From: Agarophyton chilense
Lineage: Eukaryota; Rhodophyta; Florideophyceae; Gracilariales; Gracilariaceae
Direction: 5' to 3'
Length of the DNA stretch: 64,000 bases
NCBI GenBank assembly: GCA_030374765.1
Contig: JARGXX010000129.1
Coordinates: 620,001-684,000 of the forward strand
Positions 2,463-47,802 of this stretch are shown here, piece by piece. The notes below the pieces were generated by a model that was given only the letters and a program-made list of their open reading frames with translations, searched no databases and was not told the origin of the DNA. How positions within the stretch are numbered: position 1 is the stretch's first letter; each line of letters opens with the position of its first letter. Made by a program: the position numbers and the translations under genes.

Positions 2463-3349
2463 TGTAGGACAACGCTTGGAGCGGAGACACCACGAAGATG
2501 TTCGGGATCTTCCTCTCTTGAGAGACACGCCTCAGGCGGAGGAGACGCGTCCCAGCGGAGCACAGAAACAGAGCCACTCTGGAAAGGCACGACGGAGTCG
2601 GGTGTAAGACCGAGGCCAGTCCGGCGGGATATACCTAGAGTGTTTAGGTGAGCACGGCACAGTCCGGGGTGTGACCAATCCTAGGCGGAGCGGTACCACG
2701 GCGATTGTCCGAAAGGGAGCGAGGAAACACTCGTATGAGGGGGGCGAGCGGGGTGAGTGAGGCGGCCACTCACGAGAGCCAAAAAGGAGAACAAGAGGAA
2801 CGGTGGCGAAACCCTATACAGGGGCGCGACTACGACAAGTGTCGGTGAATGAATATGAACCCACGGTGGTGGTAGCACTTTGGTCGACAGAGGGGTGTAT
2901 GAACTAACGTGCGACGGGCGCTAAATCAGTATGCGGTGAAGACGCGCCGAAGGCGAAGAGTTCAGAGCCAAGACTCCCTCCTTGGGATCTCCCAAGAGGG
3001 TGTTTACTGGGGAGCAGTGCTGAACCTCCTAAGTACTGTGGCGCGCGGCCCCTGACAGTGGGCGCGCGCCCGAAAAATAGACACTAAATAGCGATAGCGT
3101 AGCCAAATAAATACTAAAAAATTACTAAATAATACTAACCATTAGGTAGAATCTGGGCCACGTGTGGCACGCCTCGCACTCGAGCGTCGGCATCCGTGCA
3201 GTTCACGTGTGCCACCCGTGTGCACTTCCGGTCCTAACCGGCCGTCAGCACGCAATAGCGGTATAGCTTGTCATAGACCAAGCTAGTCCTCAAGCAAGCG
3301 AACTTCCTGAGTCCTGCGAAGAAACCCCCTTGAAAGGCATTGTCCTTCA
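2463..3349 (-). repeat. 3' LTR of element 1
   Basis: An 887-bp terminal repeat nearly identical to 12,656-13,528. It starts TG and ends CA on the plus strand. It carries a 14-bp insertion absent from the other LTR, near 2,865-2,880, where a ggt repeat is expanded and followed by agcacttt. A GC-rich block (gcgcgcggcccctgac, near 3,040-3,070) is followed by an AT-rich stretch at 3,100-3,140 that could hold the promoter. Confidence 0.95.
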
Positions 3350-3384
3350 TATCCCTCTCCTTAGGTGACGAACACGCCGTCGAC

Positions 3385-4863
3385 ATGGCGGGGAGGCAAC
3401 GGTCCAACCGGCATAAGAGCGAGCCGCGTAACGCGTCCAGCGACCACTCGACTGTCGAAGGCAGAGCTGCATCACCGAACGACAAACGCAACAACGCGGT
3501 AACCACTCCTCGAAATTCGAGCGCTCTTCCGCATCGTACGCCAACTTCCAGCGACCACATCCCGACACCTCGGCGACCAGCACTCCCGAAGAACGGTGGT
3601 AACAATCCCCGCCGGGGTTACTTCTCCGGTTTCCATTCGGCTCCCCTTCCGCAGGGGAGTGCCTCCTCAACCGCGCCGATCCAATCCCGGGGTCCCGTTG
3701 AAGCTTCAAGCAACATCACTCCTGAGGAGGACAACTGGCCAATTTACGACGAACTCGTCGGGTTAGACCCGCGTCAACATGCGGCGATTCTCCGGAGAGC
3801 TCCGTGGTTCCATCCGACAGTGGTCTTCGACGAAGAACTCGTGGCCGCGTACGCTGATGGCAATGCGCGTCTCCCGGGCGAGCTGCCGGCTTTAATCACC
3901 ACTTCGTGGGACAGGCGACGCCGCGTGGCGGTTCCCGTTCAGGCGATTCTGCGGCGAAGGCGCGAGTCGGCGGAAGAGGCGCATTGTACCTTCGTCCGCA
4001 TGGGCTTCTCACGGATCAACCGGGCAAACTTTCAATACCCCATCCCCAACGAATTCGGCTTCGGCCTACGGATGTACCGGACGCAGGGTGAGATCGGCTA
4101 TTGTGACCGCCTTGCGGCGTTGGAAACTTACGCATGGCGCGGTCAACAGCGAACCCGTCAAGAAGCGATCTGCTGGGTCCGTCCGATCATTCGTGCCGAG
4201 TTCCGTCACCTTCGTCGTGAGTCCCGATATCGCTGCTTACAGAAATTCATCCGCGAGGAGCGTCGGGGCATATCCCGCTTTGGGTTCCTTGTCCCTTATC
4301 AGAACACGGAGATAAACCGGATTAGTCCCTTTTACCAGTTCGGGCGATACGCTTCCCTGCCTGGGTGGTGGTCCTGCGTCGAGATGTGCCGGGGATGTTA
4401 CGTGGAGTTGCCTCCAGTCGTCTCCTATCTGGGCTCATACCTCATCGAGGATCCGCACTCCGGCTTATGGTCCGTGGTCCTAACCGAATGGGCAGTCCTC
4501 GCCGCGGCGTACATCTTGTGGGAAGCCTACGACCAGTATCGACTGTGGTATCTTCCCCGGCGTTTGCGTGGTTACATCCAGCAGCTGGACGTTCAACTCT
4601 CTCTTGGAGGTGTCAATAACGCTGATGAAGCTCAGGAGCTCATCAACATCATTAGGCGTGTCGACTTGGCTGTCGTGCCTGTCCGGCAGGGCAGCCGTGG
4701 TCAAGAAGCAGGTGGGGCTGATCGGTCTCCGGGGCGTCGCACGCCGTTGGCGGGAGATTTCATCTTCTTTAACCCATGGGAGCAGCAAGAGATCTCCGAG
4801 GCGGAGTCGTCGGCACTCAGGATGGCTTTGCAAGGCATACCATACGGGCACCCCGTGGGGTGA
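3385..4863 (+). CDS. Antisense ORF of element 1, unknown protein
   Basis: A 492-codon ORF runs opposite to gag-pol. It starts 36 bp inside the 3' LTR edge at the first ATG (MAGRQRSNRH); the open frame extends back into the LTR but has no earlier ATG. The N-terminal ~110 residues are Ser/Pro/Arg-rich and look disordered. A folded-looking core follows, with an APWFHP motif, a basic segment rich in RRR, FGRYASLPGWW, VELPPVVSYLGS, a hydrophobic Trp/Tyr-rich helix (LTEWAVLAAAYILWEAYDQY) and SPGRRTPLAGDF. Nearly every one of these motifs recurs in the antisense ORF at 32,007-33,703. The frame stops at 4,863, but homology to the other copy continues in the +1 frame to 5,197, so a one-base frameshift near the CCCCGTGGGG at about 4,850-4,860 has probably truncated it. 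I recognise no known domain. A retroviral-type envelope is unlikely: there is no signal peptide, and the orientation is antisense. Confidence 0.75.
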   Translation: MAGRQRSNRHKSEPRNASSDHSTVEGRAASPNDKRNNAVTTPRNSSALPHRTPTSSDHIPTPRRPALPKNGGNNPRRGYFSGFHSAPLPQGSASSTAPIQSRGPVEASSNITPEEDNWPIYDELVGLDPRQHAAILRRAPWFHPTVVFDEELVAAYADGNARLPGELPALITTSWDRRRRVAVPVQAILRRRRESAEEAHCTFVRMGFSRINRANFQYPIPNEFGFGLRMYRTQGEIGYCDRLAALETYAWRGQQRTRQEAICWVRPIIRAEFRHLRRESRYRCLQKFIREERRGISRFGFLVPYQNTEINRISPFYQFGRYASLPGWWSCVEMCRGCYVELPPVVSYLGSYLIEDPHSGLWSVVLTEWAVLAAAYILWEAYDQYRLWYLPRRLRGYIQQLDVQLSLGGVNNADEAQELINIIRRVDLAVVPVRQGSRGQEAGGADRSPGRRTPLAGDFIFFNPWEQQEISEAESSALRMALQGIPYGHPVG

Positions 4864-5197
4864 TCTCCCGGAGGAGGAGGGCGAATATCGTGGCGACGAG
4901 GTCATGGAAGACGTTGGAGATCCCGATGGTGCCGATACTACGGCGCAGCCGGCGCAAAGAGCGACTCACGCAGGTGCAGTGGTCGATCCAGTGGCGGCGG
5001 CGTTGCCGGACGAACCAAAAGTTATCGAGGTTCCCATACGCCCAGAGGCGGTCGTGATCTCCCAGTTCCTTCGGGGTGTTGGATTGAACGCGAAAGCGGC
5101 GAGCGGCGACATCGGTGCGATGAGAGACGCCCTCGTGGCACGCCTGACCGGCAGGAGTACCTCCGCTAGCGAATCGGTTGGCGCGCACGGCAATTAG
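4864..5197 (+). pseudogene. Frameshifted C-terminal part of the antisense ORF
   Basis: This is the continuation of the antisense ORF in the +1 frame, within an open frame that spans 4,568-5,197. It begins with an acidic linker (PEEEGEYRGDE) and ends with VVISQFLRGVGLNAKAASGD. This matches the end of the copy in element 2 (DPLRQFLLDAGFPVNQVEGD) in spacing and hydrophobic pattern. The terminal ~40 residues could be a small helical module of SAP or LEM type, but that is a guess from length and pattern only. It ends about 230 bp before the end of the oppositely oriented pol, so the two reading frames are convergent and do not overlap. Confidence 0.6.
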
Positions 5198-5425
5198 GGT
5201 TCTTCCAACTAATCCCTTGTGATCTTGGTTAGTATATCCCGCTGTGCGGTAGTGTGTGCAGCAACTTCGAAAATAGTAAACTGCTTCCGTCTATGGCGTA
5301 TTTCTTCTCTTTCTACTCTTCCACTTCTTCTGAGTGTCCCTCCTCGAGGTCTTCTGTGCATCTTCTCCTTCTTCCAAGGGTCCTTATACAGATCTTCTGT
5401 TCCTTTATCCCCATCGGGTGTCTTC

Positions 5426-6788
5426 TTATCCCACTTGGGCTCGGTCTATGGTAGCCGGCAAAGCCGTGACAGTACGACGTTGATACTGTACCACCTTTGA
5501 CCGAGGTAGGTGCTCTATCGGTTCGCCTGAATCCCATTCGGGGCCGTACCCGTACCAACGGACCAAATATTGGAGATACCTCTTTGGGTGGTAGGAGTGC
5601 TCCAGAATGCGTCCGACCACGAACTCTTGTCGGTACACTTCCCGGCCATCCCGTATGACGGTGTCGCTATTTCCGGGTGGTACCCGTCCTGAGCCAGGGG
5701 GTCCCGAAGTTATCACGCGTTGGGCGGCTTCGCTCCGGTCGGGCCGTGTAGCGAGCAAGGCAGTCCTCGGCTGAGTAGAATGTCGACCCGAGTTCGGCGG
5801 TTCATTTTCTCCAAGTGCCGGATTTGTTTCGGCGCTTCCCACTCCGGTTGGAGGGCCCACACCAGCGGGTAACCCGGGTGGTCGTTCCGCTAATCGGCGT
5901 GGTGAAGCTCGCTTCGGCGGTGAGATTCGGTGGGGCGGTGGCGCATTGTCGCACCTCTCTGTCCCACGGCGAGATTCCGTGTAGTCACGTGAGCGTTCCA
6001 ATGGCTGGCTGTCCGGCGTCGGCGCCGTGGATGTATCCGCCTCCCTGTGCGGGATACTTGGCGGTGCGTCGTCCACTCGTACTGTATCAGACTGCGGTGC
6101 GTCGAGCGCATTTGCATTTCGCGTTGCACGTGTGGTGACACCTCGGCAAGTGTTAGTGGCGTTTTCAGCAGCTGCGTTCTGAGGCTTGGATAGCGGCTGC
6201 GTCGAGTCGTGCAGGACGTCGGTATCAGGCACCCCTGATGGGCGAAGAATGACACGCGACGGTGCGGCCGGTCTAGCGACGGTATCGACCGGATTACGAC
6301 GGCTGTCGGGCGCCTCCCCCTCCTTAGACGATGTGCCGGAGTTGTTGTCCGTCGGGTTAACGGGGGAGGAGCGACGAATGCGCGACACGATTCCTTGCGG
6401 GTTGGGCGCCGCGGGTAGCGGAAGGTCAGCCAAAACCCGAGATGGGTGTGGTAACGCGTAGGGCCGCGGGTGGACCTGGGGTAAAGGGGTCGATGAATCC
6501 GTTTCAACGGGAGCAGTCACACCAGTAGGTTGGGATGTTAACGGCGGAGGAGCCGATACCATGCGATCGCGGGAGATGCGTTCGTTTTTACCAGCGAGGT
6601 CAACAACGACAGTGTCGGAAGCCACCGAAATAACCCGAGAGGGGCCGTCAGCACCGGGTGACAGCTTGTGGCGTTTCTCCTTCTCTGGGTTCCAATACTC
6701 CTTGCGGATGAATACATAACCGTCGTGGGCGAGACGTGGCGGCGAGCGAGGGGCTTTGGTATCAAAGTCATGCTTGTAAGCGGCCTGG
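5426..6788 (-). pseudogene. Pol C-terminal part with chromodomain (element 1)
   Basis: This is the distal part of the Pol polyprotein, in the same frame as 6,791-9,997 but separated from it by one TGA at 6,791-6,793. The first ~55 codons hold the segment found downstream of integrase in related copies (FIRKEYWNPEKEKRHKLS). A long Pro/Thr/Ser/Arg-rich linker follows, and then a chromodomain near 5,460-5,640 (FVVGRILEHS, YLVRWYGYGPEWDSGEPIEH). Chromodomains on Ty3/gypsy Pol proteins are known to direct integration to chromatin carrying particular histone marks. The aromatic and W..W-like pattern (LVRWYGYG, WDSGEPI) is visible, but the usual TWEP is WDSGEP here. A protein starting at the ATG at 6,625 would be 399 residues, but this is more likely the tail of Pol. 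Confidence 0.85.
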
Positions 6789-6790
6789 GC

Positions 6791-9700
6791 TCAGCCCATT
6801 GAACGCCGTGCGGCGGGAACGAGCTTCGAAAGCCAAGTTTTCCACGCTTCGCGGTAAGCAGTCGGTGACGGAAAGGTATCCAGCGTGGGCTGTGGTTCCA
6901 GCGCCACGGGCGGTAGGGTACGGGACAGTACCAGCTCGAAGGGCGTTAATCCAGTTGTCCTGTGCACCTGCGTATTGTACGCAAAGGTGAGCGCATCTGT
7001 GAACAAGTCCCAATCTTTGGGGTGGTCTGCAACGTAAGAACGGAGTGTCGCAGGTAGTGTCCGGTTGAACAGTTCGGCCTGCCCATTAGTTTGGGGATGG
7101 TAAGTGGTCGTTAACAGGTTCTTAATGTCCAAGATGCGACACACATCCTCGAAGAAACGAGAGGCGAACTGTCTCCCGTTATCGGAGAGGAGGTTGACCG
7201 GTGGGCCGTAGACGAAGACCCAGTGTAGGACGAAGGCTTGAGCCACGCTCATAGCGGAGATCTTCCGTAACGGTACGGTCCGGACCAGCTTGGAGAAGCG
7301 ACCCGTAATTACGAGTAAGAACTTGTAATTCCACTTAGTGGTAAGGAAGGGACCGAGTATATCGATGGCCACAAACTCGAATGGAGCGCGAGCTGGAAAA
7401 AGCTTCAACTTCGTCGCGTGACGGCAGAGCTTGACACGGTTCCGAGCGCAATCGGTATAAAACCGCACTGTTGCGTAGCAGTCCACTGCCATGGCAGGCC
7501 AGTAGAAGTTACAGCGTAGGGTGAGGTAAAGTTTCCGTCCCCCGACGTGGGCACTCAGTTTGGAGTAGTGCGACAACCGCAAGACTCTCGACTGGAGGTT
7601 ATGTGGTACCACGATTTGTGGGTGCGATCCGAAGTTCGGTACAAGGTATCCGGCATCATTCACCTGAGAGGGGAGAGTACCTCCTTCATTGAGTTGAGCG
7701 CGGACCTTCGCGCAGAACGGGTCAGCGTATTGCTCCAGTATCATCTCCTCTGGAGTAATAGGCACGAAGTTCCCTGGTAAGGGTTTCTCCGAATCTTCCG
7801 AGAGAAGAAAGTCGTCCAATTCGGAACCGGAATCTGAAGAGTCCGTGTCTCGTTCTTCGTCCTCGATGGTAGCGTCGTCGCCATTCACTGCAAAGCAGGG
7901 TATTTCATCGTCTTTGACGGGTAGTGCTTCGCCAGTAGTGACCAGGCGGGAGAGAGCATCGGCTTGGGTGTTGCACGATCCTTTTCGGTACTGCACGTCA
8001 AAGTCAAATTCCGCTAGACGGAGACGCCAACGCATCAAGCGGCCTGAAGGCTCGGAGATGGAGAGTAGCCATCGAAGTGATGCGTCCGTAAAAACGGTGC
8101 AATGATTACCCATGAGATAGGGGCGCAACGTTTGTAATGCCCATACTAGTGCAAGGCATTCCTTCTCCAAGACCGAGTAATTCTTCTCGTGGACGTTTAG
8201 CGATGGAGACCAGTACCCCACGGGGCGTCTTTCCCCATTGGGTGCAGTTTGAAACAGTGCACAACCTACTTGGTAGTGGCTGGCGTCCGTATCTACGGTG
8301 AAGGGCCTTCCAGGCTTGGGCAACGAGAGGATTGGGGCGGAGACGACAGAATCCTGAAGAGAGTTGAATGATTCCGTTTGAACAGGGGTTAAGGGGTTCA
8401 GTTTTGGTGGTTGGCCTTTCCGCAAAAGCTCGTTTAACGGTGCAGCCTTGTCCGCAAAGTGCGGGATGAATCGTCGGCAGACGTTTGCGAGCCCCAGAAA
8501 GGAACGAAGCTCGGTTTGCGTCCGCGGTTCTTTAGCCTCTTTGAGTGACTTAACACGAGTCTCCTCGATTGTAACACGTCCTGGACGGATAAAATGGCCG
8601 AGATACCTCACGGTGTTTGCGAAGAAGTCACATTTCTTCAACTTAAGAGTGACACCCGCATCTCGTAGCGTGGTCATGATATCCCTCACATGAGTGAGAT
8701 GTTTGTTTAGATTATCTGAGAAGATGATTATGTCACCTAGGTAGACCAGGCAGGTACGCCATTTGAAGCGGGCCAATAGGATGTCAATGGCTCGCTGGAA
8801 AGTGGTGGGGGTGTTGGTAAGACCAAAAGGCATCCGTTTGAAACGGTAGAGACCGGAGTGACACGCGAAAGCGGTTTTATCCTGGTCTTGCTTCCCTACC
8901 GGAACTTGCCAGTATCCCCAATTGGCGTCCAGGGTTGTAAAGACGGTGGCGGTGCCCAGAGAGTCGATGTACTCGTCCATTCTTGGGATTAAATACACGT
9001 CCTTGACGGTAACGGCATTCAACCGGCGGTAGTCGACGCAAAACCTCCAGGAACCATCCTGCTTTGGAGCCAGTACTACTTGAGAAGCCCACGGCGATTG
9101 AGCCGGTTTAATGACTCCTGCTCGAAGCATTTTATCCACTTGTGCCTTTTCTTCCGTGCGTGCGGCGGGTCCGGCACGGTATGGGTGCTGAGAGATGGGT
9201 CGGGTGTCCGGTAGCAAATCAATCCGGTGTTCCGTAGTGGCAATCTCACCAAGGGAGCCGTCCCACATAGTGGTGAAGTCCCTTAAAAGTTCTTGCAATC
9301 GATGGCGGTATGACTCCGGGACGTGGCTGAGATCCAGGTCCTCGGGTTCTTGGACTGGATCGGGGCGGTCACCACTCATTGAAACAGGCTGCGTCCCTGA
9401 TGTTACAGGTTGAACCCCGGGTACCGGTGATGAAACGGGTTCCGGGCTGTCCCCCTCATTAGAGTGAACAAGTCCGAGAACGTCAGCTGCGGTCAGCTTT
9501 GTCGGCACCATAGCGATGGGGTGCGGCATGACGGACCCTATCACTTGGTTCTTCACCAGATACTGGGGTACAGTTCCTAGATTGGCGATCAGCACGTGAA
9601 ACGGTTGGTTTGGCTTCACATGGACGATTCCATTCGCAATTGCGAGGCTGTGCATGTCATACAGTGACGACAATGGTTGCAATACCCGGAGTCCATGTTG

Positions 9701-9997
9701 ACGGGAGGATACTTTCACCATCATTTGGGACTCAGGCGGGACGCACAACGACGCTGCGACGCGGAGCTTATTAGATTCACGGTTATCAAGTCCAGGTTCC
9801 TGTGCTGCCGGTAGTGGGAGATGCTTCTTCGTGGCACGCCTCAGCGGACGACGAACGATCGGAGTGGACGATCCATCCTCCATCTCGACACGCCGTTGGC
9901 GGGGGAAGATCGCTTCGACGAAGCGGTCGCAAAAGTCGCAACCCAAGATGACAGGGGTGGTTAATTTCCGACATACGACGAAGTCAAGTTTCACCAC
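6791..9997 (-). CDS. pol: Pol polyprotein of element 1: RT, RNase H, integrase
   Basis: An uninterrupted frame of 1,068 codons that reads in continuation from the protease. In order it has the protease C-terminus (PVILGCDFCDRF), RT (WRFCVDYRRLNAV, MPFGLTNTPTTFQRA, LVYLGDIIIF), RNase H (FTVDTDASHYQVGCALF, EKECLALVWALQTLRPYL, TQADALSRL) and integrase (FVAIDILGPF, LLSDNGRQF, TTYHPQTNGQAELFN). The integrase D, D and E residues are present. Two key residues are changed. The RT box YLDD is YLGD (codon GGT near 8,738), which removes a metal-binding aspartate, and the first Cys of the integrase HHCC zinc finger is Tyr (VRFYTDCARN). The protein is therefore predicted to be inactive despite its length. 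The first listed codon is GTG; the frame is really entered from the protease, with one frameshift near 10,030. Confidence 0.9.
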   Translation of the reverse strand: MVKLDFVVCRKLTTPVILGCDFCDRFVEAIFPRQRRVEMEDGSSTPIVRRPLRRATKKHLPLPAAQEPGLDNRESNKLRVAASLCVPPESQMMVKVSSRQHGLRVLQPLSSLYDMHSLAIANGIVHVKPNQPFHVLIANLGTVPQYLVKNQVIGSVMPHPIAMVPTKLTAADVLGLVHSNEGDSPEPVSSPVPGVQPVTSGTQPVSMSGDRPDPVQEPEDLDLSHVPESYRHRLQELLRDFTTMWDGSLGEIATTEHRIDLLPDTRPISQHPYRAGPAARTEEKAQVDKMLRAGVIKPAQSPWASQVVLAPKQDGSWRFCVDYRRLNAVTVKDVYLIPRMDEYIDSLGTATVFTTLDANWGYWQVPVGKQDQDKTAFACHSGLYRFKRMPFGLTNTPTTFQRAIDILLARFKWRTCLVYLGDIIIFSDNLNKHLTHVRDIMTTLRDAGVTLKLKKCDFFANTVRYLGHFIRPGRVTIEETRVKSLKEAKEPRTQTELRSFLGLANVCRRFIPHFADKAAPLNELLRKGQPPKLNPLTPVQTESFNSLQDSVVSAPILSLPKPGRPFTVDTDASHYQVGCALFQTAPNGERRPVGYWSPSLNVHEKNYSVLEKECLALVWALQTLRPYLMGNHCTVFTDASLRWLLSISEPSGRLMRWRLRLAEFDFDVQYRKGSCNTQADALSRLVTTGEALPVKDDEIPCFAVNGDDATIEDEERDTDSSDSGSELDDFLLSEDSEKPLPGNFVPITPEEMILEQYADPFCAKVRAQLNEGGTLPSQVNDAGYLVPNFGSHPQIVVPHNLQSRVLRLSHYSKLSAHVGGRKLYLTLRCNFYWPAMAVDCYATVRFYTDCARNRVKLCRHATKLKLFPARAPFEFVAIDILGPFLTTKWNYKFLLVITGRFSKLVRTVPLRKISAMSVAQAFVLHWVFVYGPPVNLLSDNGRQFASRFFEDVCRILDIKNLLTTTYHPQTNGQAELFNRTLPATLRSYVADHPKDWDLFTDALTFAYNTQVHRTTGLTPFELVLSRTLPPVALEPQPTLDTFPSPTAYREAWKTWLSKLVPAARRSMG

Positions 9998-10014
9998 GCG
10001 AGCGCCAACGCGGA

Positions 10015-10428
10015 CTACCAGCCTATGAACCCTACCGTACCCAACGGTTTGTTGTTCGCGTCAGCGACCTCCGGCACGTGGTCGCGGCAGATCCTAGACT
10101 GCAAAGCAGGCGGTAACACTTCCTCCACGACAAAGTTCGGACCGGCACCGGTGTCTAAGACGGTAACGTGTCGCACCATAAACTGGGGTGAAAGGCCAAG
10201 GTCGACATAGACCTTGTAGTTTCTCTTAGCCATCACCAGAACTCTATCCGGGAACCGGTTATGGAAAACACGTTTCCACGGACGACGCAGAACACGAAAG
10301 TGTTCCGGGTTTACGTCATTGACGGCCTCTTTCCTTGAAAGTATTTCGACCGGGGAGCGAGGCTTGGACGTCTTGGGCGCCGTCGACCTCGATTCTGAGG
10401 GCGCCCCTCCTTGAGAGGAGACTCCCAC
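10015..10428 (-). pseudogene. Aspartic protease domain of element 1 Pol
   Basis: The start of Pol, in the -1 frame relative to gag and directly after the gag stop. It contains RNYKVYVDLG, then the retropepsin active site VLDTGAGPNFV, then a flap-like region and ADANNKPLGTV. In element 2 the protease runs into RT in one frame. Here a one-base frameshift near 10,030 separates them: the protease frame ends in a stop at 10,015, while the RT frame resumes with HRLVVRVG. Retropepsins are about 100 residues and act as dimers to cut Gag-Pol. The catalytic Asp is intact, but the enzyme would be released without RT. Confidence 0.8.
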
Positions 10429-10430
10429 AT

Positions 10431-10440
10431 TTAGTTTTTC
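10431..10440 (-). promoter_or_regulatory. Probable -1 ribosomal frameshift site at the end of gag (element 1)
   Basis: On the minus strand the sequence GAAAAAC is followed immediately by the gag stop TAA. Protease is open in the -1 frame across this point. This resembles retroviral slippery heptamers ending in AAAAAC or AAAAC. Element 2 has the same arrangement at 26,911-26,920. Confidence 0.55.
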
Positions 10441-12490
10441 TGGGCCTGCTCCGCCGGAGGCGGCTGCTCAGGGCGTTGAGCGGGCAACGCCTGGGCATCA
10501 GGTCCAGAAGGTACCGCAGAAGCGGTGGGGTGACCGACCACGCCGGTGACACGGGATTCGGGTGCAGGTACCACCCGAGCTCTGGGAAGCGACACGTGAC
10601 GTGGAACATCCGTTCGAGCACGGATGTACGATGCAATCGGAACAGCTGCTTTGTCCTCCGGGGATAGGGCCTCGTAATTGACTACGACTTGTGCCCATTC
10701 TCGGAGAGACAACACACATTGTGGAGAAGTATGGCCTGGTTTGTAGCAGAGATGAAAAATCAGACCAGAAGCCGGCGTTGGGTGGCGAGGCTCGGCGAAC
10801 TTCACCACGGGGCGGGTATCTCTCCAACCAGGACGCAAAAAGCGGACATTACCACTCTAGTGTGGGACGCGTGGCGCACGGACGCGACCATTATCCGCAT
10901 AGAGTAGCGTGTCATCCTCAATCACGTATTGTGATTCGTCCAAGGTTTAGGGTAACTCCGTTGTCGGGATGAAATGAACGTCGCTATGGGCAAGCTGCAC
11001 GTTATCATAATCCCTTCGAGAGGCCTGTTCGTCGATCATCGAAGCTGACGGGGTACCCGGTTGTAACATCAACGCTTTTGCGGATCTAAGCCTGGATCCA
11101 GGAGTGCGGGCGGGCAGGGGTTCACTTTCTGCGCGAGCGAACTGCACTAGTTCCAAATACGTGGCTTTAGGTCTAACTTCTCGACGTCGAGCAACAAGAG
11201 TCCGGATCGCCGGGTACAAACCATCGACAAACATAGTACAACGCTCTTCAGCGGGGTAAACATTGCCACAGCGGTGGAAGGCCTTGTTAAAGCGCGACGA
11301 ATAATCGGTTTCCGACTCGCCTGGACGTTGGCGAGTGTCCCGCAGGGCGCGTATCGCCTGCTGAATGACGGAGTTAGTAGCATACGACCTCAGGAGGTAC
11401 TGAAATGCTTCGGGCCAGCAGGTTACCCCTCCCTTGGACGCGCGTGATGTACCTCTGTCAGAGTGATACTGGTCTTCTGCAAGCCCACGTAAGAAGTACG
11501 GTAAGGCATTGTAGGCCTGTCTTTCGTTCATTCCAAGGATATCAGCTTCCGCGACAAAGCGTGCCAAGAAATCCAACACCAATATTGGGTCTTCCCCAGT
11601 AGACAACTGGTTGCGAAGTGAAAGCTGCATTCGCTTAATGCAGTCCTTCACTCTTCCCGTACCACGGGGTGTACGATCCAAAGAGGAGTCCTCCAAACGG
11701 TAGTACCGGTATGATAAGAGCTTCTTAAAGAGCGAATTGGTCCGTTTCAGCTCCTTCAAACCTGTGTGCTTCCTTCCCTTCGTGCGGGCGCGGATCACTC
11801 CATGGGTGGCTGTTGCCGCTTAGAGCGTGAGGAACGCTCACGGCGAGCTACTTCCACCGATGAATCGGAAGAGTCGGACTCCGAGGATGAGGAGTCTGAC
11901 GGTTCGGGATCCGTGTTTCTTCGCTTCTTTCGAGCCTGGCAGTTCTCTTCCTTATTTCCATTGTGGGATACTGCAACCGGCTCGGCCGGGTCATTCCCCG
12001 ACATCAGGGTTTGTTCCAACGTCTCGAGACGGCTTCGGACGCGCGAGAACTTGTCCGCGATGTCCTTGACAAAGGCCGAGGGTCCACTAAGGGACTCCAG
12101 AATCGAAATCACATCCGCACGGAGGACATGGAGGTCCTCAGAAAAATCCTGCGTAGCATTGTCATCTACCTTCTTGCGAAGGGAATCAAACTCCTCTGCA
12201 AGGATGACTTGAGCTTCCCGCATAGAGCGGAGTTGCTCTTCCACAGCTTCAAAGCTGGGATGGATAGTGACGTCCCTAGCAGGGGAGAGCATCTGCGCGG
12301 CGGCAGACGCCGGTCCTGCTCTACTTGCTGGGGGTGTCGAATCAGAGACAGGAGGTCTCGAGGTTCTTCCATCGGGCACGCCAGTCGATCCACCGGTATG
12401 AGATCGTGAACGGACCGGGATACAAGATGGTTGCAATGGTTCCGGTGCACCGGTTTGAATCCGCGTCCTCGGACGGTCTTTGGACGACAT
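10431..12490 (-). pseudogene. gag: gag of element 1, broken
   Basis: The nucleocapsid/capsid polyprotein, starting at the ATG at 12,490 (MSSKDRPRTR). The first part (12,490-11,795) has a predicted coiled coil and a Ser/Asp-rich acidic tract. Capsid homology follows at 11,798-10,947 (ARFVAEADILGMNERQAYN, YLLRSYATN, YSSRFNKAFHRCGNVYP, FVDGLYP), which matches the gag of element 2 closely. The nucleocapsid (10,838-10,431) has a zinc knuckle whose first Cys is Phe (FHLCYKPGHTSPQC). Lesions are a -1 frameshift near 11,797, where element 2 reads straight through, a TAA at about 10,944 and a TAG at about 10,857. The last codons are CAG AAA AAC TAA, and protease follows in the -1 frame. Confidence 0.85.
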
Positions 12491-12637
12491 GAGATCAGAA
12501 TCCGTTACACGTGAGTATCCAAACCCGATCGGCTAATGGGGCCCAGAAACTTACTCGAAGAGGGCAACTGAGATCAACCTCAATTTGTGGGTTCTCTTAC
12601 CGATTAATCGTTACTGAGTGTGCCTGACTCAAAATTC

Positions 12638-12652
12638 TAAGTCGGGAGACCA
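12638..12652 (-). promoter_or_regulatory. Primer-binding site of element 1
   Basis: Three bases inside the 5' LTR the minus strand reads TGGTCTCCCGACTTA. This starts with the TGG expected for pairing with a tRNA CCA end. The identical 15 bases lie at the same position in element 2 (24,554-24,568). I could not assign the tRNA. Confidence 0.7.
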
Positions 12653-12655
12653 GTT

Positions 12656-13528
12656 TGTAGGACAACGCTTGGAGCGAAGACACCACGAAGATGTTCGGGA
12701 TCTTCCTCTCTTGAGAGACACGCCTCAGGCGGAGGAGACGCGTCCCAGCGGAGCACAGAAACAGAGCCACTCTGGAAAGGCACGACGGAGTCGGGTGTAA
12801 GACCGAGGCCAGTCCGGCGGGATATACCTAGAGTGTTTAGGTGAGCACGGCACAGTCCGGGGTGTGACCAATCCTAGGCGGAGCGGTACCACGGCGATTG
12901 TCCGAAAGGGAGCGAGGAAACACTCGTATGAGGGGGGCGAGCGGGGTGAGTGAGGCGGCCACTCACGAGAGCCAAAAAGGAGAACAAGAGGAACGGTGGC
13001 GAAACCTTATACAGGGGCGCGACTACGACAAGTGTCGGTGAATGAATATGAACCCACGGTGGTCGACAGAGGGGTGTATGAACTAACGTGCGACGGGCGC
13101 TAAATCAGTATGCGGTGAAGACGCGCCGAAGGCGAAGAGTTCAGAGCCAAGACTCCCTCCTTGGGATCTCCCAAGAGGGTGTTTACTGGGGAGCAGTGCT
13201 GAACCTCCTAAGTACTGTGGCGCGCGGCCCCTGACAGTGGGCGCGCGCCCGAAAAATAGACACTAAATAGCGATAGCGTAGCCAAATAAATACTAAAAAA
13301 TTTCTAAATAATACTAACCATTAGGTAGAATCCGGGCCACGTGTGGCACGCCTCGCACTCGAGCGTCGGCATCCGTGCAGTCCACGTGTTTCACCCGTGG
13401 GCACTTCCGGTCCTAACCGGCCGTCAGCACGCAATAGCGGTATAGCTTGTTATAGACCAAGCTAGTCCTCAAGCAAGCGAACTTCCTAAGTCTCGCGAAG
13501 AAACCCCTTTGAAGGGCATTGTTCTTCA
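12656..13528 (-). repeat. 5' LTR of element 1
   Basis: An 873-bp LTR paired with 2,463-3,349. It lacks the 14-bp insertion of the other copy. The downstream target duplication tctgg is at 13,529-13,533. Confidence 0.95.
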
Positions 13529-15419: not shown

Positions 15420-15801
15420 CAAGCGGCGATGATGCGCCTTTGCTCTCTTTTGTTCTGCGCCAGTGCCACGTCGCGAGATTCTCCAGAGAGCACTCCTTTC
15501 AGTGGTGTGGAATCTCGGGATCTCCGATGTCAGCAATCAGCTTTCCACCCCTTCATAACGCCTGCCAAATGATTAGTTTTAACTGCGTCACCTCCCAATT
15601 TCACGGCGAACACTTTTCTCCGCCGACTGCGTTTTAGCGTCGCATCGTGATCTTCTTGCCAGATATGTATACAAGGAGCTGTCAAACAGATTTCACCCTC
15701 CCTCAGCCTGAGCAGAGTGGTCGAAAGCACCTACATCTAATCACTCAAAAAAGAGCTCCTCATATACGTTTGTGCAATGAAAAGCCTTGTCGTTCTCATG
15801 T

Positions 15802-15846
15802 ACTATTTACAAACTATTTACAAACTATTTACAAACTATTTACAAA
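15802..15846. repeat. 11-bp tandem repeat after the CBM20 stop codon
   Basis: Four copies of actatttacaa, which overlap the 3' end of the CBM20 gene and its 3' flank. The same array is in the right arm at 52,203-52,248. Confidence 0.9.
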
Positions 15847-17024
15847 CACCTCCATTGATCTTGTAACAGAATACTAATCCCATTTTCAGGCGGGACGTAC
15901 CTGTTGCAACCGCTTTCCCACAAAACCGCCCCTTCCTTGCTCTCCACTACGTACTTGTACTCGGCGTTGTCATTCCGTTCAATGACTGCTTCCGCGAGCA
16001 AGCTACTCCCCATGACCTCCATCCGCAACCCCGCTTCCGTGTTCCAACTTCCTAAAGCGACGCAGTTGCCAACCACTTTTGCAACCCCCCCAACCAATGC
16101 GTTTCGTGCATCAAGCGGCAACGTATCCTCGGCCAAACTGAATCTTACAGCCCATCCGTCGAACACTGGTTCTGGTGGTGGACTGTACGGCGGGGAGGTG
16201 TACGGACTCTCGGTCTCGTCACACCGAGCATGTCGCTCCTTCTTCCTCAGCAGGTACAGGGGTGCCCCATACTGAGCTGCGTCTTCGGAGAACCCCGCGT
16301 CGCTCGCCACCTCAACAGCCGCCGGCGACCAAGACATCAGCAGTACCATGCTACCAGGTGCGCACATGGTCGCAACTGCCTTCAGCTGTTGTAGCAAGGC
16401 AGGATCGGACGCGTTCTGCAGCTGCAGGAGCCACACCGCTGTCGCTCGCCAATCAAATCCCATCAGCACCAACGCAGCGGGCCATTCCTCAGGGCACGGC
16501 CGACATTGGACGTGCCAGCAGTACGGAGGGACGTGCTGATCGCCGCTTATCACGAAAATCTGGCCTTTGGGGAGCAAAACCGGGAGCTCTCCCAGCACCA
16601 CCGCCTGTCCAAAACAGAAGCGTCGAACGAGGGAAGCTACCGTCCCTGCCAAGCTGCGTTCACGCTCTTCTTTGCTTTGGCTTGTTTCGTTTTGCTCATC
16701 CCATCGTTGGGCGAGTACCAAGTCCGCAATTGTCATCCCTGACAGAGTTGATGACACGGAGCCCGATGGCGTATACTCGTCCGCGCTGCTGGCTTGGTAG
16801 GTGTATTGCTCGCCAGAAAGGGAAGAAGAAGGGGATGTTGACACAGTCCGTGATAGGGCACACCCATTTGCGCCTCTGGCCTGGTTGTGGGACAGTCCGC
16901 TAGCAATGGAAGAAGAAGAGCTTGATGACATGGACGGCGCTTGGTTGCGGATGTTTTTGTGAGTGCAGTTCTCGAAAATACTTCCAAACATCTTCATGAC
17001 GCCCTCGAGTAAAAAGCTTTTCAT
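15840..17024 (-). CDS. CBM20 starch-binding-domain protein (left copy)
   Basis: A 394-residue protein identical to the copy at 51,025-52,209. I start it at the ATG at 17,024 (MKSFLLEGVMK), which has an A-rich context. The open frame extends further upstream only through a Pro-rich stretch without an ATG, which reads as a pyrimidine-rich leader. Residues 30-95 are Ser-rich. Residues 100-260 form an unassigned globular-looking region. Residues 290-393 are a CBM20 fold: VVGNCVALGSWN, then AEYKYVV and LWESGCNRYV, with the starch-contacting Trp residues at about 327 and 369. CBM20 binds granular starch or glycogen. No catalytic amylase, phosphatase or dikinase domain is visible, so a scaffold or targeting role in floridean starch metabolism is an inference. 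No signal or transit peptide is obvious, consistent with the cytosolic starch of red algae. Confidence 0.8.
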   Translation of the reverse strand: MKSFLLEGVMKMFGSIFENCTHKNIRNQAPSMSSSSSSSIASGLSHNQARGANGCALSRTVSTSPSSSLSGEQYTYQASSADEYTPSGSVSSTLSGMTIADLVLAQRWDEQNETSQSKEERERSLAGTVASLVRRFCFGQAVVLGELPVLLPKGQIFVISGDQHVPPYCWHVQCRPCPEEWPAALVLMGFDWRATAVWLLQLQNASDPALLQQLKAVATMCAPGSMVLLMSWSPAAVEVASDAGFSEDAAQYGAPLYLLRKKERHARCDETESPYTSPPYSPPPEPVFDGWAVRFSLAEDTLPLDARNALVGGVAKVVGNCVALGSWNTEAGLRMEVMGSSLLAEAVIERNDNAEYKYVVESKEGAVLWESGCNRYVPPENGISILLQDQWRCL

Positions 17025-19595
17025 CTTTGGTGTCTTGGGAGAGATATTCAAGACAGGGTGCCCGGGTTTAAAGATAAAAGGGAGGTGGAATGGAGAGGGG
17101 TGGGGTACGGTGGGGTGGGGAAGAGTGGAGTAGGTTGGGATCGTTGGGGTCGGGCCAGGCCGGTGGATTCGGATGGTGAAGGCAAGACTGAAAAGCAACC
17201 AACTCAGAGAACTCGACCAACCGATAGAAAAAAGAGTGACAGGAGGACAGAAAGAACCACTTCAATGGCGTTTAGATTCAAATCGGTTGGTGAGCGCGGA
17301 ATGGAAGAGTCGGAGTGTGGACGAAGAGCGAGCTCTTTTATACACCACAGCGAAGAGCGAGTCGAAGAACTCAAAGTCATTGCTACTAGTTTCAGTGTCG
17401 GCATTTTGCTCTGATTCATACGTAATAATCAGCAATCCAAATTGGAGAGGCGTCGAAGAGCTTGCGTTCGAGGACATTATCTGCTCATAAGTATCCGCTT
17501 ACGGTGCTTTGGCGGAATGCAACGAAATTGTCGGAAAGAAACAGACAGTGGTGAGGTGAGGTGACGACTGTTCTGTGCCATTGGATCTTGAGTACAGTGC
17601 TCGACGACGATGCCACGCAAGCTGTTCAGAAGTAATCGACTGTGATGAAATTGATCGGAAATGCACGTTCCAGGCAGCAAATCACGAGCCTCACTCGAAC
17701 TCCCTCAACATCTGCCTCGTCTCCCAGCAGCAGATTAGATTTCCGGGGATTATCGCGCACGAGCTTTCGATTAATCATTCGAAGCACATTGTAAATGATG
17801 ATATAGTACAATATACCTTTGTTCACCTTTTGAAGGCTAACTCCAAACATGTATCAAAGCGTCAGTCTACAATCTTCCGAACAAATTCAACAGACAGCGT
17901 TCGTGCCTTTCTAATATGTGTGTCACGAAATTTTGAAGAAGGGTTGGTGGGACTCTTAGCTTTCATCGAAGGGCCATCACGTGGAGTTGGTAAGAAAGCA
18001 CCCGAAACACCCGTCTCTCTTCCATAATGGTTCTTCTCAAGGCTGCTACTATCGCTGTTAGATCTACCAAATATTAACAAAAACTCAAACCTGCTGGGTA
18101 TACCCTGCTCTTCAACTAGAAGTAAGCGCTTTGGGAATCTCGTATGCTCCCGCTCTCACTTGGTGAGATTGAAAATTCATTCATGAGGCATGTTCTTCTT
18201 TCTATGTCTGTGATTGTTTCGATCTCTGCAACGAACTCGTTCGCCATTTCGAATCTGTCATCGTGGCGGATCAAAATGGTGGTGTGGCTCCAACTTCTTT
18301 CCGATATTTGACTATTTATCCCTATAATGCGGCACCTTCAAGTTACTCAAGAGGTTCCACAATATATCATTTCATCGCACTAGAGCCACTTTTGTCGACG
18401 GAAGCCAAGAACGGAAAGTCCTTGACCATTGCAATGGGAAAAGTTTTTCTTTCAAAAGTTTTACTTGAGCTTGGGAATAAAAAGCTAATGTCCACCGGAA
18501 AGACGAAGACGAGTAGTAGGTATTAGAACGATTAACTAAAAGTCGCATGGAGAGAATAGGTTCGGGGAAACTTTGTACCCAAGACAAACAGAGAGAGGGA
18601 GAGGACTTGCCTCCCAGGGAGTTGTTTGACAATGCATCATTTACAAGATTGCCCAAGTGTCAAAAAGGTGCGGAGTGCGTCTTTCAAAGGGACTCAAAGC
18701 AAGCGGCGGCCGTGTTTCCTTTTCTTCTTCATGAGCGTGTTTTCTCAATTTCTAGCTAATCTGAAGCAAATCTTGGTGCTGGGTATTCTGCTCGATACTT
18801 TTCTAACGCTTGCCTTCCAAACACACTCAATGCACTAACTTGTTCACAGAAACCTTTTTATCTTCGAAAGATTCTCGACTGCGTGCGTCCCGCCTATTCG
18901 CCCACTGTTTCTTCACGTGCACCCGTTCGTTAATCCCTTCTAGAGCTCTTCGCACACTAATGAACCTCACTATGTACGTAATGCCCTAAATGGATGCAGG
19001 GCGAACAGAGGGGAGTAGAGCCACTGTGCCGATTGTTTCTTGTCGCACGGAGATCAAATATTTCGTGCATCGCTGTCATCACTCTTTTCGATCAAAAGCA
19101 GTTCTATGTAAATCTTCTGTCTCAACTTCATAGGACACTCTCTTCAAATTTCGTCGGCACGAACGGCGTTGCTGCCCTCCTCACCTACCTCGAGACAATT
19201 CTTTCGAAAGCCCACGAGCTTTTCTGATCGAGCAATCTTTCTTCCGTACATTGGTATGCTAACCTAATCCTCAAGTACTGTAGAAGAACACCCAAGAAAA
19301 CTTTCTTTCTTTCGAATGCCATCATGTTGGAGGTCCAATGCCTCGAGTGCAAGTGACATACCAACTCTGAATGTCATCATGCACTTCTGCAAACTTTTAA
19401 TGATTCAACCCACATGTCCACAGGAACAAGTCGGAATGCTGTTTCGTGCCCGAGCTGATTAGGATAACCAGAGCATATTCTGCAATGGGAAAGTTTCGCC
19501 ACATTCACATCCCTCCGGTTTAAATCACATAAAACTCAACCTGTTTCAGAATCACATATCGAGCCACTGAAAATCATACCACTTCCAAAGAAATA
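17025..19595. other. Intergenic part of the left arm
   Basis: About 2.6 kb between the CBM20 start and the membrane-protein fragment. A G-rich tract at 17,080-17,165 (C/T-rich on the gene strand) directly precedes the CBM20 gene and may be its promoter or leader. Short ORFs such as 17,575-18,027 (+) and 18,263-18,526 (+) recur in the right arm only because the whole segment is duplicated. I see no domain in them. Confidence 0.5.
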
Positions 19596-20246
19596 TCAAG
19601 TACCACTTTTAAACCCAGACGCACGCTTTGTGGAACCGTAGTCATTCACTATCGCTGTGCCTTTCAGTGGGAATGCTTCAGGACTCTTGTGGAGATGCAC
19701 AGCGGCAACGAGCCCAAAAATAGTCCACCCAATCGCAAAATAGTATTGGGCAAGATTCGCCATCGGCTCGGAAACGGCATGAGACGCTAATCGTTCAACT
19801 GCAAACACTGCGACCAAACATCCGAATCCCAAAGCCAGGCTCCTTCCCACACCATATATCAAAGCACTGTTGTTCTTGCCGAATAATTCTCGTACAAGCA
19901 AAGCGGATATGCAAGCGCCAGTAGCAAATAAAACAACCAAAAGCCCACTACAAAGAACAAACACAGCAAACCAAACCATCTTAGAAATGTGAATCACTAA
20001 GATGAACAGAAGTAGCTGTAGAGCCACCAAACACAACGTCAAGTTCTTCGTTCCAAAAGATAGTGGACCAGACGGGAGTCTGATCGCGTTACTGACGATG
20101 CCAACATTGGGACTACAGATCGCCGCGAGCAAATTTATGGCCTGGAGACAGCGTGTCGCAACAACCATGCTAGCATTGAGAGAATGTCTCACACCAAAAA
20201 CGAAAGGGATGAACACACATCTAGCCTGTGCTCCTGAAATACCCAT
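19596..20246 (-). pseudogene. Fragment of a multi-pass membrane protein (left copy)
   Basis: A 216-codon frame from the ATG at 20,246 (MGISGAQARC). It contains about five hydrophobic helices (for example LVALQLLLFILVIHI, MVWFAVFVLCSGLLVVLF and LALGFGCLVAVFAVERL) with Gly-rich turns, and resembles half of a major-facilitator or nodulin-like transporter. The gene begins only about 70 bp inside the sharp edge of the inverted repeat, so the missing N-terminal half was probably cut off when the segment was copied. Seven or so residues differ from the right copy, most of them near the N-terminus, and the last two residues also differ. The transporter family is uncertain. Confidence 0.5.
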
Positions 20247-20316
20247 AACGTACAACTAGAACCTAGGTGTCCAAGTCCATCCGAAACCGGGTCTTTAAAC
20301 CTCGATAGTGTAACGC

Positions 20317-23884: not shown

Positions 23885-24551
23885 TGTAGTATTCTACTAT
23901 GTCGGGGAATCCGATAGGATGATTTTTCGCGAAGTCGCGGTTGGAACTCATAAGTGAGTGATGTCATCAAACTTGTGATATGAAACGGCACACCGCGTAG
24001 GATGCCAAGAGGCAGGGTACATTAGTGGAAAACGTGGTATCACGAGTGGAGTGTCTTGCAACGGCGCATTTAGTGGCGATCCAAGTGGCAGGTTTTACTA
24101 CCCTTTGTAGCTAGACGTCCATTAGGGACCGTACCCATACAGTGGTTTGGCTAAGTGGCTGACCAATGGGTATTATTTATATATTTATTTGGGCACTCAT
24201 CCTGGCACACAGTATATAGTGCACCAGAGGTGAGCGCCGACTCCAAGTAAAGGAGACAACATGGGCATCATGACTATTCTGTTCCTCGCTTAGTATTCCT
24301 TAACCAGAGATCCGGACGAGCTATAATAGATAGTCAGCCCCCAACCACTTCACGAGCCGTCTCGTACCTACGTTCCCTCAACGTTTTACAGTTGCACTGT
24401 TCACCCTCGTTGGCGAGTAGTGGCCTTACACCCCACTTCCAGCTCGCTGGTGTTGTAGCTCTACCACCCCTTTTACTTCGCCGCAAGCGACCCATCAGCA
24501 GTCCGAACGCTGTAGCAGGTGTCTGCTCTCTCCGTTAGAGCGGATATTACA
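23885..24551 (+). repeat. 5' LTR of element 2
   Basis: A 667-bp LTR. An AT-rich TATA-like stretch (tatttatatatttattt) near 24,174-24,192 is a plausible promoter core. It is the partner of 33,872-34,538. Confidence 0.96.
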
Positions 24552-24553
24552 AG

Positions 24554-24568
24554 TGGTCTCCCGACTTA
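24554..24568 (+). promoter_or_regulatory. Primer-binding site of element 2
   Basis: TGGTCTCCCGACTTA, two bases after the LTR, is identical to the site of element 1. Confidence 0.7.
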
Positions 24569-24766
24569 TAATCACTGTGGTCAGCTGCTTTGAACAATTC
24601 GTTCGTGGAACGTGGAATCGATATCGATACTTGGAAGAAGTGGAATCACTACAGTTATTGTTTATCAAACCACCTCCGGCAATTGCGGAATTCATCGTGG
24701 ATGAACACGTGGTCGAGAAGTCGAAGACACCATTTGGTTTGCACCTGGACTCAGGTTTGGTCTAGG

Positions 24767-29900: not shown

Positions 29901-31734
29901 TTACAGAAAGCGGAAACCGATGAAGTTATTCCAGGCAAAAGCGACTTTACAATACGTCAGTATCGAAATCCTAGGGGAATTGATTCGCTCAACGCGAGGT
30001 TATCGCTACCTATTGGTAACCACCGACCACTTCTCGAAGCTAGTGCGGACTGTGCCGATGAAGCGGATAACCGCAACCGTAATCGCACAGGCGTTTATCA
30101 AACACTGGGTATTTATATACGAACCACCAGAAGTTTTGTTATCAGATAATGGGAAGCAATTCGTTGCGAAGTTCTTCCAGAATGTTTGCCGCATTATGGG
30201 CATTCCAAACGTGTTTACCACGACCTATCATCTGCAATGCAACGGTCAGGTGGAGCGTTTCAACCGAACGCTGATAGCAGCACTACGACACTACATCGCG
30301 GACCACCCAAAAGAATGGGACATGTTTACTGATACTCTGTGCTACGCGTACAATACGCAAGTGCATACCTCTACGAAGAAGGCACCGTTCGACCTCGTGC
30401 TCTCACGTAACCCTCCAGCTTTACCGGTTGCGCTCGACGACGAGACAGAATTGGACGCACTGACCCCGGCTAAGTACCATCTGAAATGGAGGAATGACCT
30501 GAAGGCCAGAGCGGAAGAAGCCGCTAAAGAGTTATCAAAGACGCAAGCTCGCTATAAGCGAAACTATGACGCCAGGAGGCGAAGAGGAAATCCGACAATC
30601 CGAGTAGGAAGTCACTTCTTCGTGCGAGTTGAATGACCGGACAAACAGGAAGAATCTCGTCATAAGTTGTTGCCGATAGCGGCTGAACCCTTCAAAGTGG
30701 TGGACCTTGATGAAGACACAGTGCTCATCAAGACAGGTGAAGACGTTGAACGTGTATCGCGCAATCGTGTTGAAGTCGCGCCTGACCCGCAAGTGGAAGT
30801 CTAGGTATCTGGTAGAACTAAAGAGAAAAGTGCGACGGAACGTCAAGGCAAAAGCCCAAGTGACTCTTGGGAGATTGAACCGCCACCAATGGCTCGAGCG
30901 GAGGAGAAAGCTCCTGATCTCCCACCGCCTGCGGTTGCGTACGCCAATCACAGACAGCTTCCGAAATATCGGGATATGCCCCGTGGCACGCACACACCCG
31001 TAAGTACAGAAATGGAACCTGAAAGCAGGAAAGATGTTTTGGAAGTTGGCCCCAAGGACTTGGAAACGAGTGCACGCGAACACGCGCCGTTGCTGCTTCA
31101 GGCTGAACCGTCAGGTGAAGCGCCACTCGCTGTTCCGCCGATATCGGCTCCCATCCCTCGTGGGCAGGAAGGAGAAGAGGTATCGCCTCCTGTCGTGGTG
31201 CAAGCAACATCATCCACCCAACAGCGGTCAGAATCGGATAAACCGAAGGAAGTTCATCCAAGAATGGAATTGAGAAGTAGCAAGAAGTACGCTTCTATGG
31301 AAACTGGAAAACAGGATAGCTCTTTATCTGAGAAAGGTTCTCAAGGAATGAGTACACTGCTCCTGCGGGCAGAACGACGGTTAGTCGACGAGCGAACACT
31401 TAGCGACGCGGAGACTGCTAACACAGAGACGCTTGGGTCAGCCCTAAGGCATTTCAAACCTGTTAACAGGAGTCTCGCGCCAACAGCAAAAGCATTGGGA
31501 AACGCCCAGGAATATGTTATGGATCGCATATGTGAACATGGCGAACATGAAGATACCAGAGAATTACTGTATCGAGTCCGTTGGTACGGTTTTCCTCCGG
31601 AAGCGGATACGTGGGAGCCTATAGCTCATATCCCCCGTTCGCAACTCGTGCGATATCATCGACGCATGCGATTGCCACTCCCCAGGGAGATCGACTCCTC
31701 GATAGTCGGGCTCATGGGCACATCCCATTTCTAA
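26911..31734 (+). pseudogene. pol: Pol of element 2, one frame with eight nonsense codons
   Basis: A single frame of about 1,608 codons with no frameshift but eight stops (starting at 27,175, 27,787, 28,387, 29,158, 29,194, 29,350, 30,634 and 30,802). Domains in order are: protease (TILDTGARPIF); RT near 28,130-28,900 with FCTDYRKLNAV, MPFGLTNAPATFQ and an intact YLDD; RNase H near 29,040-29,400 (VDTDSSEYQVGCALF, SEKECLAVV, VQADALSRL), which holds three of the stops; integrase near 29,730-30,450 with the zinc finger HYSRLFGHPGG...CTTC, LLSDNGKQF and QCNGQVERFN; and a chromodomain near 31,509-31,690 (YRVRWYGFPPEADTWEPIAH). The first integrase catalytic Asp is Glu (VSIEILG; element 1 has VAIDILG). 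Confidence 0.92.
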
Positions 31735-32006
31735 GTATGGGCTACAAAGGTAGTAAAAACTTGAAAGGCGAGAAGAAAACAAGAAACCATGAAGAGGAAA
31801 CGTGTAGACACGCAAGAAAAGGACATTTATTGATTATCATCTATGACGAACTCGAGAAGCTAGAAGAAGGATTGAAGAACTCGAGAAGCGAGAAGAGATG
31901 AAGACTAGAAGATAAGAAGAGAACGAGAAGACACGAAGTCACCGGAATTTTATTGGTATCAAGATACCCCCGCAAGGTTGTTGACTAGGAGTCTTTTCTG
32001 GGATCA

Positions 32007-47732: not shown

Positions 47733-47802
47733 ACGTTACGCTATCGAGGTTTAAAGACCCGGTTTCGGATGGACTTGGACACCTAGGTTCTAGTTGTACG
47801 TT

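Follow-up and report, generated by a model that had tools for sequence, protein, structure and literature searches.

A conserved antisense gene beside the 3' long terminal repeat of red-algal chromoviruses, a candidate trans-acting regulator

A 64,000-nucleotide stretch of Agarophyton chilense DNA (contig JARGXX010000129.1, positions 620,001 to 684,000; hereafter the window) contains two Ty3/gypsy chromoviruses, elements A and B, each of which carries a gene of about 600 codons on the strand opposite to gag-pol, between the chromodomain end of pol and the 3' long terminal repeat (LTR). An earlier inspection of these letters without database searches (the sequence-only reading) had noted the pair of open reading frames (ORFs) and proposed that they encode a functional, selected protein of an undescribed family. 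Comparison of five families of such elements, A to E, indicates that this is almost certainly a real, selected gene of the element. We consider it fairly likely that a red-algal chromovirus lineage carries it as an accessory gene, the product of which acts as a soluble trans-acting regulator rather than as a structural or Env-like protein.

Both elements are complete, as had been proposed. Element A (2463-13528, gag-pol on the minus strand) and element B (23885-34538, plus strand) have exact edges, each with a perfect 5-bp target-site duplication (TCTGG in A, GTGGA in B), and their paired LTRs are 96.7% (A) and 98.1% (B) identical. In A, the 5' LTR (12656-13528), gag (10947-11819, PF03732), the reverse transcriptase (RT), RNase H and integrase part of pol (6791-10060), the pol end with the chromodomain (5426-6790) and the 3' LTR (2463-3349) all lie on the minus strand, and the pol domains match PF00078, PF17917/PF17919, PF00665 and PF00385. 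Pfam finds gag and the same set of pol domains in B, in pieces, on the plus strand: gag at 25793-26920, RT/RNase H at 28390-29160, integrase at 29353-30636 and the pol end with its chromodomain (PF00385) at 30805-31734, followed by the 3' LTR at 33872-34538. The RT-RNase H-integrase order with a chromodomain at the C-terminus of pol places A, and in pieces B, among Ty3/gypsy chromoviruses. A search with 20-base seeds, the only test bearing on LTR relatedness, found no repeat of at least 60 nt common to A and B.

In both elements the opposite-strand gene occupies the interval from the chromodomain end of pol to the 3' LTR, and is convergent with pol across gaps of 228 and 272 bp, close to the 230 and 270 bp first estimated. 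Its A copy begins with an open part of 492 codons plus stop (3385-4863, plus strand); a 41-bp gap relative to the sister copy L003 then shifts the frame, and the remainder (4864-5197), which holds a C-terminal QFLRGVGL... motif, lies in another frame. The B copy (33847-32007, minus strand) aligns without gaps to L053 and has stops at codons 43, 142 and 372. Both window copies are thus disabled, A through a deletion and B through three stops, a point absent from the sequence-only reading, and the family is still alive elsewhere in the genome. The two proteins share 71 of 178 residues (40%) in their core (E 3e-36; tblastn E 2e-50). When all frames were compared between families A to D, the coding frames scored highest in six of six pairs, with the antisense shadow frames second, so that the similarity suspected from shared motifs extends beyond composition in a proper alignment.

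A search of the whole genome (79.8 Mb in 135 contigs) placed the gene at no fewer than 84 (A), 150 (B), 77 (C) and 88 (D) sites; these lists are lower bounds, as only the best candidates were scored. Families C, D and E were found with the homologues P0012 (from Gracilariopsis), P0010 and P0018, respectively, and four loci of C, five of D and one of E (L071) were read. The A, C and D lists have no common place within 2 kb; B lay outside that comparison, and the matches in its list are 83-100% identical to the B query, a protein only 32-34% identical to those of A, C, D and E. Intact copies expected elsewhere in the genome were found: the match is free of stops in 12 of 84 places for A, 54 of 77 for C and 61 of 88 for D, and open copies of A to E encode 591-644 residues, counted from the chosen methionine. 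Across the five families the antisense proteins are 32-52% identical in pairs and the chromodomain region (located by tblastn with pol A in C, D and E) 42-72%, which suggests that the antisense protein changes somewhat faster. Between A and B, pol is 52% identical over 1085 columns, against 40% for the core of the antisense protein, which is thus conserved much as other element proteins are. The core alignment of families A to D has 90 invariant columns; E was added afterwards.

Family D also showed local rearrangements. At locus L063 the D antisense gene is flanked by an inverted repeat, perfect over at least 781 nt and derived from the pol end (1207-1987 and 4221-5001 of the locus), and thus sits between two oppositely oriented pol ends. 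Another D pair, at C117:1234754 and 1238186, is arranged head to head, and C68 carries three D copies in tandem, about 9.2 kb apart.

The strongest evidence for selection comes from codon usage between families. Over 533 ungapped codons of families A to D, pairwise identity is 0.51-0.64 at the first codon position, 0.53-0.67 at the second and 0.29-0.37 at the third, and 61-69% of identical residues (methionine and tryptophan excluded) are encoded by a different codon. The protein has thus been preserved although third positions are close to random, a pattern which, on sequence comparison, indicates that selection acts on the protein. Within families, we computed the ratio of nonsynonymous to synonymous polymorphism (pN/pS) over 28 of the 30 copies fetched for each of A and B, near-duplicates and very gapped copies having been dropped. 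Variants found in one copy gave 0.98 (A) and 1.06 (B), the neutral behaviour expected of dead insertions, and those found in at least two copies gave 0.62 in A (Fisher p 0.0025) and 0.70 in B (p 0.006). Shared variants in the other two same-strand frames gave 1.10 and 1.05 (A) and 0.85 and 1.83 (B), none of them significant. A ratio near 1 across many copies had been named beforehand as evidence against selection; it was observed for singletons, and the shared variants are depleted. Pol served as a control, and in B it showed depletion as well (0.51, p 0.03; 17 nonsynonymous and 14 synonymous variants). The between-family codon pattern is the stronger of the two lines of evidence, and together with at least three further families (C, D and E) and the homologues in other records it bears out the proposal that the gene was functional and selected.

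The gene travels with the element. Among the best-scoring 30 loci of each list, window copies counted in, an opposite-strand pol adjoins the gene in 28 for A and 29 for B, and two of the three exceptions have E-like or B-like LTR sequence at the break, which we read as nested insertions. With the window copy itself excluded, 28 of 29 A copies and 26 of 29 B copies lose homology at the outer edge of the LTR; co-mobility is thus shown for A and B. The convergent order recurs in C (L062), D (L063, L070) and E (L071), as judged by tblastn with pol A, and a common layout of LTR, polypurine tract, ATG, gene, poly(A)-like signal and convergent chromodomain end holds in A, B and one or two loci each of C, D and E. 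Ranked across A to E, pairwise identities in the chromodomain region agree with those of the antisense protein (Spearman 0.73, over 10 non-independent pairs). Taken together, the linkage, the breaks at LTR edges, this rank agreement and the Gracilariopsis relatives described below favour old joint inheritance over repeated capture, as far as sequence can tell, while horizontal transfer is also possible.

Signals at both ends of the gene are consistent with its expression from the LTR. The ATG, which stands behind the polypurine tract, is separated from the inner edge of the 3' LTR by 35 nt in window A, 24 nt in window B, 79 nt in L062, 45 nt in L070 and 35 nt in L071; these edges are defined by paired LTRs in A and B and by visual inspection in C, D and E. 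In A the tract, also called by eye, occupies 3350-3365 on the minus strand, directly before the antisense gene, and reads TATCCCTCTCCTTAGG on the plus strand. Because so little room is left before the ATG, the antisense leader would have to start inside the LTR. Past the stop codon, AATAAA or AGTAAA occurs within 38-77 nt in all five families (one or two copies each; in A, AGTAAA at 5275-5280, plus strand, a putative poly(A) signal), and where an anchor beside the stop could be located (19 A and 24 B copies, of 30 each), such a signal was present in 16 and 23, respectively. The same hexamers occur in 258 of 5954 (4.3%) overlapping 100-nt stretches of these loci. An antisense mRNA driven from the LTR is thus probable. 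For comparison, the human T-lymphotropic virus (HTLV) is described as having an antisense promoter within its 3' LTR, and the promoter of maize Grande gene23 as lying upstream of that gene (PMC7264820).

The encoded protein has four parts: an N-tail, a core, an acidic C-terminal part and a short C-terminal helical stretch. The N-tail (94-153 residues) is of low complexity and mostly basic, with a net charge of +1 to +18 in seven of eight proteins and -8 in C. It contains a short GFxSAP-like motif, seen as GYFSGFHSAPLP (A), PYTGFRSVPLP (B), STGFQSAPHP (D) and YFSGFRSAPLP (E), and in looser form in C, P0012 and P0016. The conserved core, taken as 330 residues, is rich in tryptophan, tyrosine and arginine, with 33-42 arginines and 0-4 lysines. 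The C-terminal part carries a charge of -5 to -20, and its acidic linker contains a second short motif, D-P-x-(V/L)-D-N, in C (L062), E (L071), D (L063, L067), P0010, P0011, P0016, P0018 and P0019; this motif is absent from A, B, P0012 and the D copy L070.

The oddest property of the protein is its near-absence of lysine. K/(K+R) is 0.03-0.12 in all five families, compared with 0.37 and 0.20 in two pieces of pol A, 0.44 in gag B and in one piece of pol B, and 0.49 and 0.17 in two host proteins of the window, EDC4 and GH47. Set against the expectation from codon-position composition, the five families have 2/11.4, 4/11.7, 6/12.0, 3/10.6 and 5/12.7 lysines (observed/expected; Poisson p 0.0009-0.046), whereas pol A (48/30.3), EDC4 and GH47 are not below theirs. 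The protein can accordingly be called a conserved lysine desert, which fits arginine-based nucleic-acid binding or work beside a ubiquitin ligase.

Searches for known domains support the proposal that the family is undescribed. Nothing was found in PHROGs, NCBIfam or the PDB, and the only Pfam match among six members was to E3_binding, in a single protein, at E 0.24. Pfam detected neither a bZIP nor, in the six members, any ubiquitin-system domain. TRP28 (PF04195) was found neither in the six members (E<=5) nor in the window proteins (E<=0.1), and a genome-wide search gave 0 matches over the cut-off and one below it. Hydropathy revealed no membrane segment, the best 19-residue value over eight proteins being 1.57 (the usual transmembrane cut-off is 1.6). 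No signal peptide was apparent at the N-terminus, which was judged polar by eye.

Protein searches returned 16 distinct homologues, P0010-P0025, and those with a stated organism are from red algae. Two are from Gracilariopsis chorda: P0011, nearest to D (62%, BLASTP), and P0012, about equidistant from A, C and D (42%). Eight are unnamed products of Agarophyton chilense (P0013, P0014, P0015, P0017, P0020, P0021, P0023 and P0024), and P0013, the only homologue record traced to an element locus, is identical letter for letter to locus L043 from residue 21 to the end. The others (P0010, P0016, P0018, P0019, P0022 and the weak P0025) have no stated organism. None of the homologues found bears a host-gene name, and no fungal protein is named among them; a scan of IMG/VR found no relative. 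P0025, on a JGI contig of 4,635 bp, is distantly related to the core (33% with E over 135 residues) and perhaps comes from outside the Gracilariales. The public protein records of Agarophyton and Gracilariopsis thus label homologues of a transposon gene hypothetical or unnamed. For the published Gracilaria (Agarophyton) chilensis assembly, a repeat share of 66.2% and a G+C content of 48.9% are given (PMC10388701).

We propose that gene and element have been inherited together from a time before Agarophyton and Gracilariopsis diverged. Its mRNA would start in the 3' LTR and end in the convergent gap, and translation would yield a soluble product about 600 residues long. In it a disordered, largely basic N-tail would be followed by an arginine-rich core, helical for the most part, then by an acidic linker and a short C-terminal helical stretch. 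This protein may act in trans on the element or the host, most likely by binding nucleic acid or a host factor, and its effect may be to favour transcription or escape from silencing. A regulator is suggested by the arginine-rich core, by tails that seem disordered and hold short conserved motifs, and by the failure to find any sign of a membrane or particle protein. Nucleic-acid binding in particular seems to us the leading candidate activity, a choice we make tentatively.

The position of the gene, together with a core rich in tryptophan, tyrosine and arginine, might instead suggest an Env-like or structural protein, involved in entry, cell-to-cell transfer or the particle, that is antisense by chance, since env is usually placed between pol and the 3' LTR. 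The hydropathy and N-terminus described above speak against such a protein, as do the separate gag and the failure of Pfam, PDB and BFVD searches (the fold searches being run on a weak model) to match anything, and we consider it quite improbable. Still less credible, and the least probable reading of all, is that the antisense transcript itself matters, through double-stranded RNA or self-limitation of copy number, with the open frame a by-product. The convergent arrangement would suit it, and regulatory antisense RNAs are discussed for other retrotransposons (PMC7264820), but near-random third positions beside kept first and second positions, and the different codons used for most identical residues, refute it as the sole role; an RNA role in addition to the protein is possible. 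Recent capture of a host gene by one element, followed by passive copying, has precedent in that gene capture by retroelements is documented (PMC7264820). Five families at their present divergence, with Gracilariopsis homologues, indicate an old gene, however, and neither the names of the homologues found nor a divergence that tracks the chromodomain region points to a host gene, so that recent capture is very improbable, while ancient capture of a host gene is possible.

The lysine content raises a further alternative, in which the protein is a ubiquitin adaptor that recruits a host ligase to a silencing factor and escapes its own modification through its near-absence of lysine; the lentiviral proteins Vif and Vpx offer a comparison for this mode of action. 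The depletion of lysine in all five families, below codon expectation unlike in pol A, is what such an adaptor would predict, and lysine deserts are described as prevalent in components of the ubiquitin-proteasome system (PMC10169902). However, Pfam offers only the single E3_binding match, arginine in place of lysine would equally suit nucleic-acid binding or a G+C-rich gene, and the host GH47 protein is lysine-poor too, though not below its expectation. We regard the adaptor as unlikely, though less so than the readings above. In a fuller version, to which we give slightly less credence still, a nearly lysine-free adaptor made from the antisense LTR promoter would link a host ubiquitin ligase to a silencing factor, contacting the ligase via the GFxSAP-like tail motif or the C-terminal helices and the silencing factor via the arginine-rich core. 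If so, a Vif/Vpx-like counter-defence would have evolved independently in algal chromoviruses, which would help to explain how these families together reach several hundred copies in an 80-Mb genome.

Several points weigh against the view that the gene encodes a selected regulator. The regulatory role is argued from composition and from analogy with Grande gene23, TRP28 proteins and HBZ. AlphaFold models are weak (predicted local distance difference test scores of 34 and 51, the latter model helical), and fold searches of the PDB and BFVD with such a model matched nothing. Most scored A copies (72 of 84) carry a stop within the match, as do 26 of 30 fetched B copies in the reference frame. In the within-family test, one non-coding frame of B (frame 1) reaches its value of 0.85 at p 0.08, transversions alone give 0.55 (A) and 0.85 (B), and the C-terminal control stretch of pol A is not depleted (1.10). 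Constraint is also apparent in the antisense frame that has its third positions in common with the gene (0.82 in A and 0.61 in B for shared transitions), as a shadow of the gene should show. The poly(A)-like hexamers were chosen after looking. The Gracilariopsis relatives were seen as protein records, and the loci were gathered starting from the gene, so that our counts cover chromoviruses that carry it.

The rest of the window holds other mobile and host sequences. A 4,868-bp inverted duplication, 99% identical (15448-20315 and 47734-52601), flanks element B, and the longest frame of its left copy includes a CBM_20 starch-binding domain. A Pogo/Psq-like DNA transposon lies at 40627-42701, with HTH_psq and DDE_1 in overlapping frames. 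The two host genes, an EDC4/Ge-1-like enhancer of mRNA decapping (53303-56524) and a GH47 alpha-mannosidase (58932-60848), are each one long open frame, identified by Pfam.

That an ORF can lie antisense between pol and the 3' LTR is well established, though such ORFs are functionally unexplained; they are described in Grande, RIRE2, Retand, PvRetro13 and Boty (PMC7264820, PMC11963269). The plant examples, termed aORF-3R (Grande gene23, RIRE2, PvRetro13 and Retand ORF4, which has a TRP28 domain, PF04195), resemble the gene described here in position and strand, in conservation across families and in the accessory role proposed for them (PMC11963269, PMC7264820). TRP28 is reported as the common domain of the antisense proteins of Retand elements, a non-chromovirus lineage; here the hosts are red algae, the elements chromoviruses and TRP28 is not found. 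Gene23 and the other plant proteins entered this comparison by description. The sequence-only reading, which saw no similarity to the plant proteins, is supported overall, while the arrangement itself was already known in plants and in fungal Boty. Our search of the open-access literature (subscription papers lay outside its scope) found no paper on antisense ORFs in red-algal elements. We conclude that a known arrangement here appears to hold a new protein family, in a new host group and in chromoviruses. The function of such genes becomes testable in this system, because five families in one genome encode the same protein, the scored copies of C and D are mostly open, and relatives exist in a second genus.

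Three further systems offer partial parallels. Boty, from Botrytis and Sclerotinia, likewise has an antisense ORF in a non-plant element (PMC7264820), but its protein entered our comparison by description, and our homologues name no fungal protein. In plant Tekay chromoviruses, as here, a chromovirus encodes a conserved extra protein, but the additional ORF lies at the 5' end and encodes a largely disordered product of about 400 residues (PMC11728184). Deltaretroviruses likewise have an antisense gene (HBZ of HTLV-1, APH-2), which is driven by the 3' LTR and encodes a regulatory protein (PMC11963269, PMC7264820); the protein described here differs in having no bZIP or other Pfam domain, and its LTR promoter is a putative one. 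Antisense genes beside the 3' LTR, with apparently unrelated proteins, thus occur in plant Retand-type elements, deltaretroviruses and red-algal chromoviruses, and this recurrence points to a repeated solution, in which a gene exploits the opposite-strand promoter that the 3' LTR offers.

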